Assembly: GCF_009649845.1 (NCBI RefSeq)
Contig: NZ_WJIE01000014.1
Location: forward strand, 62,001-126,000
Length of the DNA stretch: 64,000 bases
Direction: 5' to 3'
Source: Polyangium spumosum
GTDB taxonomy: Bacteria; Myxococcota_A; Polyangia; Polyangiales; Polyangiaceae
Of this stretch, positions 1,351 through 6,909 are shown piece by piece. The position numbers and the translations under genes are program-made. Under the pieces are notes generated by a model that worked only from the letters and a program-made list of their open reading frames with translations, was not told where the DNA came from and did not search any database. How positions within the stretch are numbered: the stretch's first letter is position 1; each line of letters starts with the position of its first letter.

Positions 1351-2703
1351 CTATTGCAAGGCGGCGTGCCACATCGCCTGCCAGAGCTCCGGATAGGCGC
1401 TCGCGACGCGGGAGGGCGCGTGATCGCAGAGGGCGCGCGCGGCGAGGTCGAAGGCCCGCTCGCCGCAGGTCCGCGGCGTGAAGGAGCGCGTCCGCTTGCG
1501 GCCCGGCCGCGCGCGCGGGCTCGGCGGGACCGGCAGGGACGCGCGCGCCGCGCCGCGGTTCAAGACCGAAGAGACGCTGCCGATCCCCTGCTCGGCCCGA
1601 CGCGCGACGTGCTCCGAATACGCCTCGCCGTGGCCGAATTTCTCGGCGAAAAGCTGCAGGATCGAGGTGTGGTCGAGCAGGCCGCCGTGGACCGTGCCCC
1701 GCTCGACGAGCGGCGAGACGACGATCGCGGGGACACGCACGCCCGTGGTTTCGAAGGCCCCGTCTCGAATGGCGGGCGGCGAGACGTGGTCGTAAAACCC
1801 GCCGTGCGAGGCGTACGTGACGATGAAGAGCGTGCGGGCGAAGCGCTCGGGGTTCGACGTGAGCGCCTCGTAGACCTGGAGCAAAAATCGCTCGCCCGGC
1901 GCCATGGGCAAGGGCGGGCGGTTGTCGTTCGGCGGGCGGCCGAGGTGGAAGGGCGCGTCGAAATAAGACGGCTCGATGTAAATCACCTGGGGGAACGTCT
2001 CGTCGGCCTCGGCGCGCACGTCCTCGCCGAGCCGCTCGGCCGAACGGAACCGATCACTCGCGACTTCGCCCAGCATCCAGGGGCAGAGGGTGAAAAAAGA
2101 CAAACCATCGTGATAAACACGGTAGCGGACCCCCCGCTGCTTCATCCAGTCGAAGACGGTGTCGTGCAAGGGCAGGAGCCGTGGCGTGGTGTCCAAAAGC
2201 AGCGAATAACCGCACGTCGCCATGAGCCGGTTCGGCGCCACACCCGTCGGCAGCGGCGAGAACCAGCGGTCACAGACGGCGTAACTCTTCGCCAGGAAAT
2301 TGGTGACCGGCGCGTCCGTCGCGCGCAGGAAGCCCATCGGCGAGGGCCGCGAGGAGCGGTGGGCGCCCTCCGCTTGTAAATATGCCCGCACGAATCCGTC
2401 CATCGCCCGCGCGCCCGAGGGCATCCGGCGGCCGAGCGAGGTCCGGACGGAATGGCGGTCGTCGGGCAGCTCGCCCGGCATTGCGCCGTCGCGCATCTCG
2501 AAGGGCTGGTGAACGCGCCCCTCGCAGGTGTTTTCGTATCGTGGATCCGAAAGCCGCCCGTCGATCGGCGTCCCCACGAGCCCCTCGAGCCGCCCTTCGT
2601 AGGGCCCACCGTCGAGGCTCAGGTGGCCGAGGACATGATCAAACGATCGGCTCTGCATCATCAGGACAACGATGGTGTCGATGTCCTCCAGTTTGTCGGC
2701 CAC
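1351..2703 (-). CDS. Phospholipase C/phosphoesterase-family protein, probably catalytically dead
   Basis: This 450-residue protein follows the bacterial phospholipase C / acid phosphatase AcpA fold: an N-terminal strand leading into xxRSFDHxLG, a middle PTGVAPNRL segment, YIEPSYFD, and HGGFYDHV. The family's metal ligands are Glu-Asn in ENxSFDH and Asp-Glu in DEHGG. Here they read QS (MQSRSFDH) and AS (YASHGG), so all four appear replaced. The Thr of the PTxxPNR segment, the nucleophile region, is kept. No signal peptide is evident. I chose the GTG at 2703 because GGAGG lies 7 nt upstream; an in-frame TTG at 2802 has no ribosome site. It is divergent from the sigma-54 regulator across a palindromic repeat. 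A non-enzymatic or altered activity is inferred. Confidence 0.8.
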   Translation of the reverse strand: MADKLEDIDTIVVLMMQSRSFDHVLGHLSLDGGPYEGRLEGLVGTPIDGRLSDPRYENTCEGRVHQPFEMRDGAMPGELPDDRHSVRTSLGRRMPSGARAMDGFVRAYLQAEGAHRSSRPSPMGFLRATDAPVTNFLAKSYAVCDRWFSPLPTGVAPNRLMATCGYSLLLDTTPRLLPLHDTVFDWMKQRGVRYRVYHDGLSFFTLCPWMLGEVASDRFRSAERLGEDVRAEADETFPQVIYIEPSYFDAPFHLGRPPNDNRPPLPMAPGERFLLQVYEALTSNPERFARTLFIVTYASHGGFYDHVSPPAIRDGAFETTGVRVPAIVVSPLVERGTVHGGLLDHTSILQLFAEKFGHGEAYSEHVARRAEQGIGSVSSVLNRGAARASLPVPPSPRARPGRKRTRSFTPRTCGERAFDLAARALCDHAPSRVASAYPELWQAMWHAALQ

Positions 2704-2844
2704 GGCCCCACCTCCAACTGGTAACGGGTACGTTTCGTCGAAATCGTGGACAGGGCTGCACGGGACATGCCAGAGCGAACGAACGGCGCGCGTGAGCTTC
2801 AATAGGGGCTCGACACACCGTCTGTTCTCCGCTAGGATCGTGGC

Positions 2845-2948
2845 CTACGACGGCCGTATCTCCGACATGTCGGCGGACATGTCGGTCGACACGTCTCTAC
2901 GACGGCCGTATCTCCGACATGTCGGCGGACATGTCGGTCGACACGTCC
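2845..2948. repeat. Two tandem 52-bp repeats of palindromic boxes (operator-like)
   Basis: Bases 2845-2896 are repeated almost perfectly at 2897-2948; only the last base differs. Each unit holds the 8-bp palindrome ACGGCCGT, the 12-bp palindrome CCGACATGTCGG, a second GACATGTC, and GACACGTC. The last three boxes are spaced exactly 12 bp apart, at 2864, 2876 and 2888, and again at 2916, 2928 and 2940. The unit length is not a multiple of three, so the copies would be in different reading frames and coding constraint cannot explain the repeat. It lies between the divergent phospholipase-like gene and the FHA/sigma-54 regulator, where a multi-site operator would be expected. Confidence 0.7.
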
Positions 2949-2999
2949 GACGCCGGGCAAGGCTTGTCGCGGACCCGGTTTTCGTGGTATCAGAGGTAT

Positions 3000-4610
3000 G
3001 TGTCCTCACAAGACGCGGAGCTCTCGACGATCGACGGACTGCAACCACCGTCGACGTACGCGCCGTACGGGGCGTTCGGGGCCGCCCGTGTCCCTGCGTT
3101 GACGATCGCCTGGCACCCGACACTCGAGCGGGTCGGTGATCGGGCGCTCTTGTCGATGAGCCCCGGCGGCAGCCCCATTCCTTTGTCACGGCTCGAACCG
3201 GATTTCTCGCCCCCCGGCTCGGCCACGGGGGAGCCGCTCGGCGACCCGCACGTGAGCCGCAAACCCATCCACCTGCTCAAGCTCGAAAACGATTACATCC
3301 GCATCGACACGCAGGGCAGCTCCACGCGGGTCGTCGCGAACGGAACCCCGCTCGAAGGCAGCCGCGACTTCAGTCCGCTGGACCTGGAGGCGGGCATCGT
3401 GCTGGAGCTCGCGAACCGCGTCGTGCTCCTCTTGCACCTCGACGAGCTGCGCCAGGAGACGGGCGAGGACCTCGGCCTCGTCGGCGCGAGCCACGGAATC
3501 GAGCGCGTTCGGCGCGAGATCCGGCGGCTCGCGAGCCTCGACGTGCCCGTGCTGATTCGCGGCGAGACCGGCACGGGAAAAGAGCTCGTCGCGCAGGCCC
3601 TGCATAACGCCGGGGTGCGGCGGAACCGGCCCTTCGTGGCCGTCAACATGGGCGCCATCCCCGCCGCGCTCGCCGCCGCCGAGCTCTTTGGCTCCGATCG
3701 AGGCGCCTTCACCGGCGCGGTCCGCAGCCACGCGGGTTATTTCGGCGCCGCGGAGGACGGGACGCTTTTCCTCGACGAGGTGGGCGAGATCCCGCTCGAC
3801 GTGCAAGCGTCCCTGCTCCGCGCCCTCGACGTCGGCGAGGTCCAGCCGCTCGGGGCCGCGCGCGTGCGCGAGACGAACGCTCGTATCGTCGCCGCGACCG
3901 ACGCCGACCTCGAGGTCAAGGTGCAATCGGGGATGTTCCGCGGCCCGCTCCTGCACCGCCTGGCGAGCTACGAGCTCGTGCTCCCGCCGCTACGGCAGCG
4001 GCGCGACGATATCGGGCGACTCTTTTTGCATTTCCTGCGGGTCGAGCTCGAGCGATTCGGAAAAACGGACCGGATCGGCGACCACGGCGGCAAGGTGCTG
4101 CCCACGTCGTTCATCGCCGCGCTCGTCCGGCACGATTGGCCCGGCAACGTGCGGCAGCTCCGGAACGTCGTCCGGCAGATCGTGCTCGGCAGCCACGACG
4201 CGGGCCCGCTCGACCCGGGGCCGGCGCTCGCGTCGCTGATGTCGTCGTCGCCGACGCCGCCCGGCGGGGGCGCGGGAGGTCAAGGCGAGTCGAGCGCTTC
4301 GGCGGCGAAGGAGCCGCCCATTTCGCTGCGCCGCAAGCCGAGCGAGGTGAGCGAGGAGGAGCTCCTGGAGGCGCTGCGCGTCTGCGATTTCGACGTCAAA
4401 GCGACGGCCGAGCGGCTCGGGATCTCGCGGACGTCGCTCTACGCGCTGGTCGAGGACAACCCGAAGGTGCGGCGCGCGAGCGACCTCGATCGGGAGGAGA
4501 TCCTGCGCGTCTTGCGAGAATGCGACGGGAACGTCGAGCTGACGGCGAGGCGCCTCGAGGTGTCGAAGGTGGCGCTGCAGCGGCGCATCAGCGAGCTCAA
4601 GATCGCCTGA
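3000..4610 (+). CDS. FHA-domain sigma-54-dependent enhancer-binding regulator with duplicated Fis helix-turn-helix
   Basis: Transcription activator for sigma-54 RNA polymerase. An FHA phosphothreonine-binding domain covers about residues 35-150 (HVSRKPIHL core). The AAA+ domain has Walker A GETGTGKE at 188-195, the sigma-54-contacting GAFTGA loop at 235-240, Walker B LFLDE near 258, and the R-rich sensor segment PLRQRRDDI. The C-terminus carries two consecutive Fis-type HTH units (around GISRTSLYALVE and EVSKVALQRRIS), whereas most relatives have one. FHA domains of this class read phosphorylation by Ser/Thr kinases. I favour GTG 3000, preceded by AGAGG at short spacing; ATG 2919 is also in frame but lies inside the palindromic repeat. 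Autoregulation through that repeat is inferred. Confidence 0.9.
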   Translation: MSSQDAELSTIDGLQPPSTYAPYGAFGAARVPALTIAWHPTLERVGDRALLSMSPGGSPIPLSRLEPDFSPPGSATGEPLGDPHVSRKPIHLLKLENDYIRIDTQGSSTRVVANGTPLEGSRDFSPLDLEAGIVLELANRVVLLLHLDELRQETGEDLGLVGASHGIERVRREIRRLASLDVPVLIRGETGTGKELVAQALHNAGVRRNRPFVAVNMGAIPAALAAAELFGSDRGAFTGAVRSHAGYFGAAEDGTLFLDEVGEIPLDVQASLLRALDVGEVQPLGAARVRETNARIVAATDADLEVKVQSGMFRGPLLHRLASYELVLPPLRQRRDDIGRLFLHFLRVELERFGKTDRIGDHGGKVLPTSFIAALVRHDWPGNVRQLRNVVRQIVLGSHDAGPLDPGPALASLMSSSPTPPGGGAGGQGESSASAAKEPPISLRRKPSEVSEEELLEALRVCDFDVKATAERLGISRTSLYALVEDNPKVRRASDLDREEILRVLRECDGNVELTARRLEVSKVALQRRISELKIA

Positions 4611-4663: not shown

Positions 4664-5455
4664 ATGTCGTCCGCCTCGGCCGCCCCCCACGCCTCGGTTC
4701 GTCCCACGCCCACGCTGCGCGAGTGGCTCCACGAGGGCCCTTTTTCGATGGGCCTCTCCTCGGGCTTCTTCGGGTTCTTCGCGCACGCCGGGGTGATGAC
4801 CGTGCTCGAGGACGAGGGGCTCTCGCCCGCGCGGGTCTCGGGCTCGAGCGCGGGCGCGCTCGTGGGCGGGATCTGGGCGGCGGGGGCGAGCGCCGTGACG
4901 ATCCGCGACGAACTCTTGCGCCTGAAACGCGAAGATTTCTGGGACATGCGGCCCGGGCCGGGGCTGCTCGCGGGCAAACTCTTCCGGGCGCGGCTCGAAG
5001 CGCTGCTGCCCGTGCGGACGTTCGATCGTTGCCGCGTGCCGCTTGCGGTGAGCGTATACGACGTGTTTTCGCGAAAGACGCGGGTCCTCGCCGAGGGGCC
5101 GCTCGCGCCCGCCATTCAGGCGTCGTGCACGGTGCCCGGCCTGTTTCATCCGGTCTGGCACGAGGGGCGCCCGCTGCTCGACGGCGGCATCCTCGACCGG
5201 CACGGGCTCGCCGGAATGCCCCCGGGCGAGCGGCTCTTGTATCACCACCTCGCGTCGCGCTCGCCGTGGCGAAAGGTGAACAGCCCTTCCCTGAAGGTGC
5301 CCGAGCGAGGCGGAATGGCCGCGCTCGTCATCGAATCCTTGCCGCGCGTGGGCCCCTTCCGCCTGCCCGAGGGCGCGCGGGCCTTCGACATCGCGGCGCG
5401 GGCGACGCGAGACGCGCTCGCGCGTCCCGTCGTGGTCCAGGATCGAACGAGCTGA
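4664..5455 (+). CDS. Patatin-like phospholipase
   Basis: Cytosolic serine lipid acyl hydrolase of the patatin family, 263 residues. The oxyanion region GLSSGFFGFF sits at 30-39, the nucleophile elbow GSSAG at 60-64 with Ser62, and the catalytic Asp in DGG at 173-175, so the Ser-Asp dyad is complete. No signal peptide or membrane segment is evident. Its physiological substrate cannot be read from the sequence; relatives hydrolyse glycerophospholipids or monoacyl lipids. The gene stands 53 nt after the sigma-54 regulator, with its own TAGGAT hexamer 9 nt before the ATG and no ribosome site, so an independent leaderless transcript is likely. It converges on the PepSY gene with a 6-nt gap. Confidence 0.88.
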   Translation: MSSASAAPHASVRPTPTLREWLHEGPFSMGLSSGFFGFFAHAGVMTVLEDEGLSPARVSGSSAGALVGGIWAAGASAVTIRDELLRLKREDFWDMRPGPGLLAGKLFRARLEALLPVRTFDRCRVPLAVSVYDVFSRKTRVLAEGPLAPAIQASCTVPGLFHPVWHEGRPLLDGGILDRHGLAGMPPGERLLYHHLASRSPWRKVNSPSLKVPERGGMAALVIESLPRVGPFRLPEGARAFDIAARATRDALARPVVVQDRTS

Positions 5456-5461
5456 AATGAT

Positions 5462-6049
5462 TCAGGGGCCGCCCGAGAGCACCACGTACGCAATCGGGAC
5501 CGCCGCGCCGACGAGCACGAAGATCCCGCCGCGGCCGATCAGGCCCTTCCGGCCGGGAAGCATGAACATGCCCGAAAACGCGAGCAAGAGGAGCAGGACC
5601 GCGTACCCGTCGGCCACGTAGGTCCACGCCTTCTTGCCGCGGTTCAGATGCAGCCAGTTCGCCAGGCGCAGGAAAAACCTCGGCTCTTGCCCCTCGTCGA
5701 GCACCTTGCCGGTCTGCGTGTCCACGTGCAGCGTGCGCCGGTCGAGCGTGATCTCGAGCTCCGTCGGCGTCGCGCGGTAGACGTCGCTCGGTTTGTCCCC
5801 GATGTTCAGCTTTTGAAGGACACGCTCGGCGACGGCCTGATCGTCGCCTTCGAGGGGCCCTCCGAGCTCGTGGGTGAACTCGTGATTCTTGAAATTCGGG
5901 TCCCAGTCCGCGATGTGATTCACCGCGAGGCCGGAGGCGGCGTAGACGAGGGTGAGCCCGACCGCGAGGTTGCCCGCGTCGCGGTGGACCGTGCGGAGCA
6001 GGCCGCGGGGCGAGAAGCGGCGCCGGGGCTCGGGCGCGCCCTCAGCCAT
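5462..6049 (-). CDS. PepSY-associated transmembrane protein
   Basis: A 195-residue membrane protein with a helix at about 27-47 ending near NHIADW, a soluble PepSY-like domain (about 60-130) and two further helices at about 147-166 and 175-193. PepSY-TM proteins often act as membrane electron-transfer or redox partners. Its ATG lies inside the end of the upstream molybdenum oxidoreductase gene (8-nt overlap, ATGGCTGA), so the two are translationally coupled. This suggests it anchors or supplies electrons to that Tat-exported enzyme, in the role MsrQ plays for MsrP; that role is inferred. The histidines near helices 1 and 2 (NHIAD, HRDAG, LHLN) could ligate haem, but this is not shown. Confidence 0.8.
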   Translation of the reverse strand: MAEGAPEPRRRFSPRGLLRTVHRDAGNLAVGLTLVYAASGLAVNHIADWDPNFKNHEFTHELGGPLEGDDQAVAERVLQKLNIGDKPSDVYRATPTELEITLDRRTLHVDTQTGKVLDEGQEPRFFLRLANWLHLNRGKKAWTYVADGYAVLLLLLAFSGMFMLPGRKGLIGRGGIFVLVGAAVPIAYVVLSGGP

Positions 6050-6752
6050 AACGCTCCTCGGTCCAGGGATCGGCGTGGTTGTGGTAGCCGCGCGTCTCCC
6101 AGTAGCCGGGCCTGTCGGTCCGGACGAACCGGATGCCCGTCACCCATTTCGCGCTCTTCCAGAAGTAGAGATCGGGCACGAGGGCGCGCGCCGGCGGGCC
6201 ATGCGGGCGCGTGAGCGGCTTTCCCTCGTGCTTGTGCGCGATGAGCACGCTCGGCGCCGTGGCCTCGGCCAAGCGCACGTTGGCCGTGTAGCCGTTCGCC
6301 GCCTCGAAAATGACGTGGCGCACCGTGTCACGCACCTTGGCCATCCTGGCGAGCTCGGCGACCTTGACGCCCGTAAAACGAGCGCCGAGCACGCTCCAGC
6401 CCGTGACGCAGTGGACGTCGCACGTCTGCTCGGTCTGCGGCAGGGCGAGCAGGGCCGCAAAATCGAGGTCGAGGGGGTTATCGACGTCGCCGTGGACGCG
6501 GAGGCGGAAGGCCGAAGGGCTCGGGTCGCCGGGCTCGCCGCCCATCGGCTTCAAGGCGTCGAGGATACGCTGGCCGGGCGGCAGGCGCGGCCGTCCGTCG
6601 GGCCGGAGCTGCTTGGCCCGCGGATCATCGGTGGCGGCGAGAACGTAGGTGCCGCCGCCGAGCGCGAGGAACGTGGTGCCGGCCGCGGCGGCGCGCAGGA
6701 AGGCGCGGCGGCGGATCGCATTTTCAAGCGCGGAGAAATCGTCCTTCGGCAT
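6042..6752 (-). CDS. Tat-exported molybdopterin-dependent oxidoreductase (sulfite oxidase/MsrP fold)
   Basis: A 236-residue protein of the sulfite-oxidase superfamily. It has a twin-arginine signal (RRRAFLRAA followed by a hydrophobic stretch) near residues 15-35, so it acts in the periplasm. The molybdenum-ligating Cys lies in HCVTGWSVLG, and the cofactor-binding fold continues through PHGPPARALVPDLYFWKSAKW, typical of the MsrP/YedY group. The reaction is reduction or oxidation of a small sulfoxide- or sulfite-like substrate; the exact one cannot be read. I chose ATG 6752 because GAGGAGG lies 6 nt upstream; the ATG at 6782 has no ribosome site. The PepSY-TM gene overlaps its stop and is probably its membrane partner. 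Confidence 0.88.
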   Translation of the reverse strand: MPKDDFSALENAIRRRAFLRAAAAGTTFLALGGGTYVLAATDDPRAKQLRPDGRPRLPPGQRILDALKPMGGEPGDPSPSAFRLRVHGDVDNPLDLDFAALLALPQTEQTCDVHCVTGWSVLGARFTGVKVAELARMAKVRDTVRHVIFEAANGYTANVRLAEATAPSVLIAHKHEGKPLTRPHGPPARALVPDLYFWKSAKWVTGIRFVRTDRPGYWETRGYHNHADPWTEERYG

Positions 6753-6909
6753 GGGGAGCCTCCTCGGATCGAGCCGACTCATCGTAGCGCTCTACGTGCG
6801 AGCGTCGAGGCGGTTTCATCGGCGCGGCGAGATCTCTCGGCGAGGGCTTTGCGGCGAGCGGAGCCCTCCCCGCACGGGCCCGTCGCGAGCCCCCTCCACG
6901 GCCCCCCCA

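Follow-up and report, generated by a model that had tools for sequence, protein, structure and literature searches.

A conserved array of palindromic boxes in Polyangium as a probable enhancer of a divergent sigma-54-type promoter

Background

Between two divergent genes of Polyangium spumosum, a 52-bp unit carrying evenly spaced palindromic boxes occurs twice in tandem, which raises the question of what this array does, which protein binds it and which of the two genes it serves. We analyzed the whole stretch of DNA around it (64,000 nucleotides, referred to below as the window, from which all coordinates are taken) together with related genomes. The reading that we favour, with a probability of roughly 0.75, is that the array is the enhancer (UAS) of a sigma-54 promoter, would be bound by the activator encoded next to it, and would thereby drive the phosphoesterase-family (PLC-like) gene on the other side.

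A duplicated box array with a strict 12-bp period

The two copies of the unit, neither of which has a strand, occupy 2845-2896 (copy 1, nearest the PLC promoter) and 2897-2948 (copy 2), and their sole mismatch is the last base (T at 2896, C at 2948). TRF reported a 52-bp period over 2845-2947 (2.0 copies, 100% matches) and a 12-bp period within each unit. Three boxes follow this shorter period in the form GACATGTC-GGCG-GACATGTC-GGTC-GACACGTC, at 2864-2895 in copy 1 (2864-2871, 2876-2883, and 2888-2895) and at 2916-2947 in copy 2 (2916-2923, 2928-2935, and 2940-2947). The box sequences are identical between the copies; over both units, GACATGTC is present four times and GACACGTC twice. A previous sequence-only reading of this DNA had described two near-identical blocks with six GAC-NN-GTC boxes spaced 12 bp apart, and both TRF and the box coordinates agree with that description; the palindromes and the period stand, and the one minor point to amend is the third box of each unit, which reads GACACGTC.

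With two mismatches at most tolerated, matches to the three boxes were still confined to these two places in the 64 kb, and 100 dinucleotide shuffles yielded none. The sequence-only reading had also proposed a genome-wide search for such arrays, and this returned the exact three-box pattern nowhere else in 10.76 Mb; the reversed control pattern had no match in the same genome. These counts bear on the idea that the boxes are sites for an unrelated regulator that binds as a dimer (e.g., of the TetR/MarR type), is encoded elsewhere and acts on either or both of the divergent genes. Operators often take the shape of a GAC-NN-GTC palindrome, and the array would suit another DNA-binding protein just as well, the activator being linked to it by adjacency. 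However, an exact array that occurs nowhere else in the genome is expected for a local regulator, the activator gene adjoins the array in 6/6 Polyangium genomes, and the position of the array fits an activator enhancer (see below), all of which make an unrelated binder quite unlikely.

Conservation of the array across Polyangium

The sequence-only reading had named absence of the array in close relatives as a refutation, yet the array is present there: in each of the six Polyangium genomes compared, it immediately precedes the orthologous FHA/sigma-54 activator gene. Among 39 genomes (this one and its relatives), the exact three-box pattern occurred in eight. The stray matches in G003, G020, and G032 fall inside long reading frames (less clearly so in G003) and look like background, given that the reversed control pattern was equally frequent (three matches over the same 39 genomes). 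In the six-genome alignment, none of the 18 half-site columns varied, whereas seven of the 14 columns in centres and spacers did (hypergeometric P = 0.001, with columns treated as independent). The box centres were invariably purine-pyrimidine (AT, GT, or AC), which gives the consensus GAC-RY-GTC. Invariant half-sites combined with variable centres and spacers form the pattern that would be expected of protein-binding palindromes. The gene order PLC - array - activator - patatin was also the same in 6/6 genomes.

The doubling of the unit was seen in this genome alone, the array being single in the other five according to pattern counts and alignment. The second copy is exact and is known from a single draft assembly (61 contigs), as might be the case if sequence noise or an assembly artefact had produced it. 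Yet the three-box array stands at the same place in six separate assemblies, so only the doubling could be artefactual, and the probability that the array itself arose in this way is next to negligible.

The array does not behave as coding sequence

The activator frame in this genome is open back to an ATG at 2919, inside copy 2, and a step of 12 bp corresponds to four codons; the repeat might thus encode an N-terminal peptide of the activator (MSADMSVDTS) or, alternatively, fold as an RNA element. The frame is also open over the array-to-GTG stretch in three of the five orthologs. Against this, in-frame stops occur in the orthologous loci of G003 (one TGA) and G005 (one TGA and two TAG), where they follow the array and precede the conserved GTG 3000: they appear with a match from query residue 15 (about window position 2961), and none is found with a query from GTG 3000. 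These stops indicate that the activator probably starts at GTG 3000. Furthermore, the 52-bp duplication shifts the reading frame, and five of the seven variable array columns hit first or second codon positions, versus two at third positions. The stops in these two orthologous loci rule out a coding repeat and add to the frame argument by which the array had earlier been called non-coding. Judged by the orthologous sequences, the conserved-peptide version is already refuted, and a coding or RNA feature of any kind seems highly improbable.

A sigma-54-like site upstream of the divergent PLC-like gene

The divergent gene (1351-2703, minus strand) was assigned to the phosphoesterase family on the basis of Pfam, NCBIfam, and its orthologs, and probably starts at a GTG at 2703 behind GGAGG. 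PF04185 matched it with an E-value of 6e-46 (on the longer ORF from TTG 2802), and the five orthologs match from the first residue of the GTG 2703 start with 81-84% identity. The NCBIfam PC-PLC score was 101.5 bits, below the model cut-off of 580, and 'PLC-like' is therefore a family name rather than a tested substrate. As a side observation, the protein translated from GTG 2703 opens with the motif VADKLEDIDTIVVLMMQSRSFDH, with no room for a signal peptide. It has QS at the position where relatives usually have EN.

Upstream of this gene, on the minus strand, we found a predicted sigma-54 promoter (2757-2772; TGGCATG-TCCC-GTGCA as -24/-12; predicted start at 2746), which the sequence-only reading had missed and which points into the PLC-like gene. 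It carries 10 of the 12 letters of the consensus TGGCACG-N4-TTGC(T/A) (PMC7910581), with the GG and GC of GG-N10-GC in place and a -12 element of GTGC instead of TTGC. The site TGGCAYG-N4-GTGCA was present at the same position in 6/6 genomes (11/12 consensus letters in G005 and 10/12 in the other five), and 13 of its 16 columns were invariant, compared with 118/222 for the intergenic region overall. Sites with at least 10/12 letters occurred four times on both strands of the 64 kb, none of them with 11. The GTGC of the -12 element and the score of just 10/12 in five of the six genomes nevertheless count against the enhancer reading. This 12-letter count is the basis on which we rely (one count omitted the final T, which the others included), an earlier scan with weights of our own having returned many weak hits. 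One rpoN gene was found per genome in all six Polyangium genomes.

Sites of EBPs typically lie 80-150 bp upstream of -24/-12 promoters (PMC7910581). Counted from position 2746 as the predicted start, copy 1 has its box centres at -121.5, -133.5, and -145.5, while those of copy 2, at -173.5, -185.5, and -197.5, are outside that range. Across the six genomes the centres are at -120.5/-132.5/-144.5 or 1 bp further, which places repeated palindromes at UAS distance (-120 to -146) in all of them. Given a conserved sigma-54-type site with the array at this distance, the role that best fits the array is that of an activator enhancer. The regulatory interpretation offered from the sequence thus holds for a non-coding array that lies between divergent genes and recurs in relatives, and is refined in one respect, namely that the target promoter, previously unnamed, is probably the sigma-54-type site of the PLC-like gene.

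The neighbouring activator and its surroundings

The gene on the other side of the array (3000-4610, plus strand, probable start GTG 3000) encodes a sigma-54 activator (bEBP) of 536 residues with the order FHA - AAA+ (GAFTGA) - tandem Fis-type HTH, and its orthologs in the other Polyangium genomes are 73-77% identical. The AAA+ sigma-54 domain matched PF00158 (2.3e-56), contains GETGTGKE (Walker A) and GAFTGA in the family alignment, and matches the fold of FleQ and NtrC1. At the C-terminus, Pfam HTH_8 was detected in two stretches, and the AlphaFold model has two three-helix HTH units (residues 452-486 and 498-532). HTH_8 was found twice in four of five scanned family proteins, either full-length or C-terminal (including L004, L043, and L048) and once in L074; by eye, both HTH regions are traceable through 19 aligned family members. 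Residues 1-167 gave no Pfam hit at a maximum E of 10. The AlphaFold model of residues 24-155 had a pLDDT of 91, and all five of its Foldseek matches at E ≤ 0.001 were FHA domains; the model aligned with 5a8i (VIA Z 13.4, rmsd 3.1, 110 aligned) and 6hc0_B (VIA Z 12.8, rmsd 1.9, 100 aligned). On this predicted model, the N-terminus belongs to the FHA fold. Two Ser-Arg pairs (S63-R64 and S86-R87) were invariant in 19 sequences. The domain content thus agrees with the description of this neighbour from sequence alone as an FHA/sigma-54 protein with a doubled HTH.

A patatin-like phospholipase gene (4664-5455, plus strand) follows 53 bp downstream of the activator gene and has a counterpart in the same place, with 90-92% identity, in each of the five further Polyangium genomes. 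Downstream of it, on the minus strand (5462-6782), PepSY-TM-like and molybdopterin oxidoreductase genes lie in tandem. A scan of six proteins of the window around the activator detected no kinase. Elsewhere in the family, activators L043, L054, L055, L056, and L057 adjoin, by eye, Ser/Thr-kinase-like frames (e.g., DGKYRIARVLGVGGMAAV), and such neighbours fit an FHA-type input.

Other elements between the divergent genes

A second conserved element without strand (2792-2819; GTGAGCTT-N4-AGGGGCTCGACAyACC) occupies part of the interval from the promoter to the array. When three mismatches at most were tolerated, it was found at exactly one place in each of the six Polyangium genomes, a search that shows uniqueness only, the pattern having been derived from the same loci. 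Its invariant columns number 23/28 (2791-2818), compared with 25/32 for the array (2864-2895). This element is left unexplained by the enhancer model and may be another protein site or part of the activator promoter.

Overlapping it, a sigma-70-like site (2810-2838, plus strand; TCGACA-N17-TAGGAT) is a possible promoter of the activator gene and occurred once versus 0.1 times expected in shuffles. The start predicted from it falls near 2845, right before the boxes, and about 50 bp separate the end of the array from GTG 3000. The array could then be mainly an operator for autoregulation, where the protein, bound over its own sigma-70-type promoter or shortly downstream of it, blocks its transcription and the PLC-like gene is not the main target; many such regulators are autoregulated. 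However, the alignment showed that only the -35 part of the sigma-70-like site is conserved in the other five genomes and the -10 part is not, in contrast to the divergent sigma-54-like site, and the distance from the boxes to the sigma-54 start differs by no more than 1 bp among the six genomes. We therefore consider an operator as the main role unlikely, although the two roles are not exclusive and autoregulation is compatible with the array being an enhancer. Since the array is only about 50 bp from its start codon, the bound activator probably also controls its own gene.

A partly conserved stretch just before GTG 3000 (2959-2999, plus strand; AGGCTTGT...TTTTCrTGrTATCA, with a -10-like TATCAn recognized by eye) is a candidate alternative promoter of the activator gene; 24 of its 41 columns are invariant, barely above the intergenic background of 118/222.

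Search for further targets and for arrays in paralogs

We further searched the six Polyangium genomes with the two-box pattern GACRYGTC-N4-GACRYGTC, which matched at five places outside the ortholog locus (two in G000, two in G004, and one in G005), while its reversed control matched twice, both times in G003. Four of the five places were examined (L063, L069, L070, and L071; one in G004 was left out). Of these, three fall within long frames, most clearly L063 and L070 (third-position GC of 0.94 and 0.91), L071 being ambiguous, and none of the four had a sigma-54 site of 10/12 letters within 400 bp. These two- and three-box patterns thus revealed no second target in the six genomes.

We also examined activators that share the tandem-HTH region, which at E ≤ 1e-8 gave 17 matches in 12 of the 144 genomes of the class. 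From the 15 non-G000 matches 14 were used (one from G125 was omitted), and L185 was dropped as too short. The non-orthologous set comprised 30 loci, including 15 paralogs, L074, and L076, and was reduced to 23 by removing seven in which no reading frame was recognised. Upstream of the 15 paralogs, GACNNGTC was observed 10 times versus 3.6 expected, in 6/15 loci; a count of 10 was reached in 0/200 shuffles, and five other half-sites were commoner in raw counts. A family-wide operator code was considered on this basis and set aside, the enrichment being modest, patchy, and too weak to support such a claim. Palindrome arrays with a constant period were present in 2 of the 23 readable non-orthologous loci (L050 and L190), and this low frequency, together with the patchy GACNNGTC, indicates that periodic arrays are no general mark of the family and weighs against the enhancer reading. 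In one paralog group, repeats of TGAC, for the most part as GCTGAC, were noticed by eye at intervals of about 20 bp in four of five members.

The array of L190 is GC-rich and of the CGG type. In L050, a paralog in G001, four exact 13-bp copies with GTCGAC palindromes lie about 130-180 bp before the FHA domain, between the activator gene and a divergent sigma-54-like site (TGGCACG-CCGG-CTGCT). The distance from this array to the predicted start would be about 160-205 bp, longer than normal for an upstream site, and the divergent protein had no Pfam hit. L050 is a possible independent analogue of the Polyangium array. A further sigma-54-like site, AGGCACGGAA(G/C)CTGCT, was found in L048, L049, L052, and L053, where no divergent gene was visible beside it, and it may be due to chance; a search with a pattern taken from these loci was rejected as circular. 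In another family of the same class, L184 and L186 have sigma-54-like sites (TGGCACCGCCCTTGCT and TGGCACCCGCTTTGCT) upstream of the activator gene itself, preceded, by eye, by GAC/GTC-rich inverted repeats, which suggests self-activation of these tandem-HTH FHA activators.

Proposed mechanism and implications

If the array is the enhancer of the PLC-like gene, dimers or higher oligomers of the activator would bind the GAC-RY-GTC boxes side by side, perhaps cooperatively, and the FHA domain would receive a phosphothreonine signal from a Ser/Thr kinase. The AAA+ part would then assemble and the DNA would loop, whereupon ATP hydrolysis would open the sigma-54 polymerase at 2772-2757 and the divergent PLC-like gene would be transcribed as a result. 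In a tentative and rather doubtful extension of this model, FHA sigma-54 activators with two Fis-type HTHs in each chain would form a family of their own, in which each chain would grip two neighbouring boxes one 12-13-bp step apart, oligomers would polymerise along the DNA, and the length of the array would tune the output. Were this ruler-like arrangement true, the doubled 52-bp unit would represent a recent gain of enhancer strength in this species.

These results suggest a testable set of regulator, enhancer, promoter, and target in Polyangium, in which an input of the FHA (Ser/Thr-kinase) type would be linked to two predicted lipid hydrolase genes. The single and doubled arrays form a natural pair in which the effect of the number of enhancer copies on sigma-54 output could be studied. 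Moreover, if the doubled HTH truly matches the 12-bp step, it would provide a simple new DNA-reading mode for such activators.

Comparison with known systems

Among the matches listed in literature searches, no myxobacterial title was returned for GACATGTC as a text string, and no title on FHA, tandem-HTH, or Polyangium EBPs or on sigma-54 phospholipases described the array. According to its title, the work of Jelsbak, Givskov and Kaiser (2005) reportedly deals with M. xanthus enhancer-binding proteins that have an FHA domain. The Polyangium activator resembles bEBPs of the NtrC/NifA/FleQ type in its AAA+ fold, its GAFTGA loop, and palindromes about 100-150 bp upstream of a -24/-12 site. NtrC-type sites usually consist of one or two long palindromes, whereas in the Polyangium array short boxes of 8 bp, three or six in number, follow one another every 12 bp.

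Nla28 of Myxococcus xanthus is a two-component response regulator, and in this it differs from the Polyangium activator with its FHA sensor and two HTHs. Its sites are described as tandem imperfect 8-bp repeats, CT(C/G)CG(C/G)AG, that are near-palindromes and mostly occur three to five to a cluster, seven promoters having two such clusters (PMC9765219). The clusters lie upstream of sigma-54 (-24/-12) promoters, and their spacers vary, with a mean of 25 bp in the 12 Nla28 promoter regions (PMC9765219, PMC7910581). The likeness is that of a myxobacterial sigma-54 activator with clustered 8-bp near-palindromes upstream of -24/-12, whereas the box sequence differs (GAC-RY-GTC in Polyangium) and the strict 12-bp period of the Polyangium array contrasts with the variable spacers of Nla28. 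Overall, the array is genuine, conserved, and suitably positioned, and is most readily understood as the enhancer of a sigma-54 promoter, an arrangement of a known kind for which the Nla28 clusters are a close precedent; its exact 12-bp period, its possible match to the doubled HTH, and its doubling in one genome are the points in which it is less ordinary.
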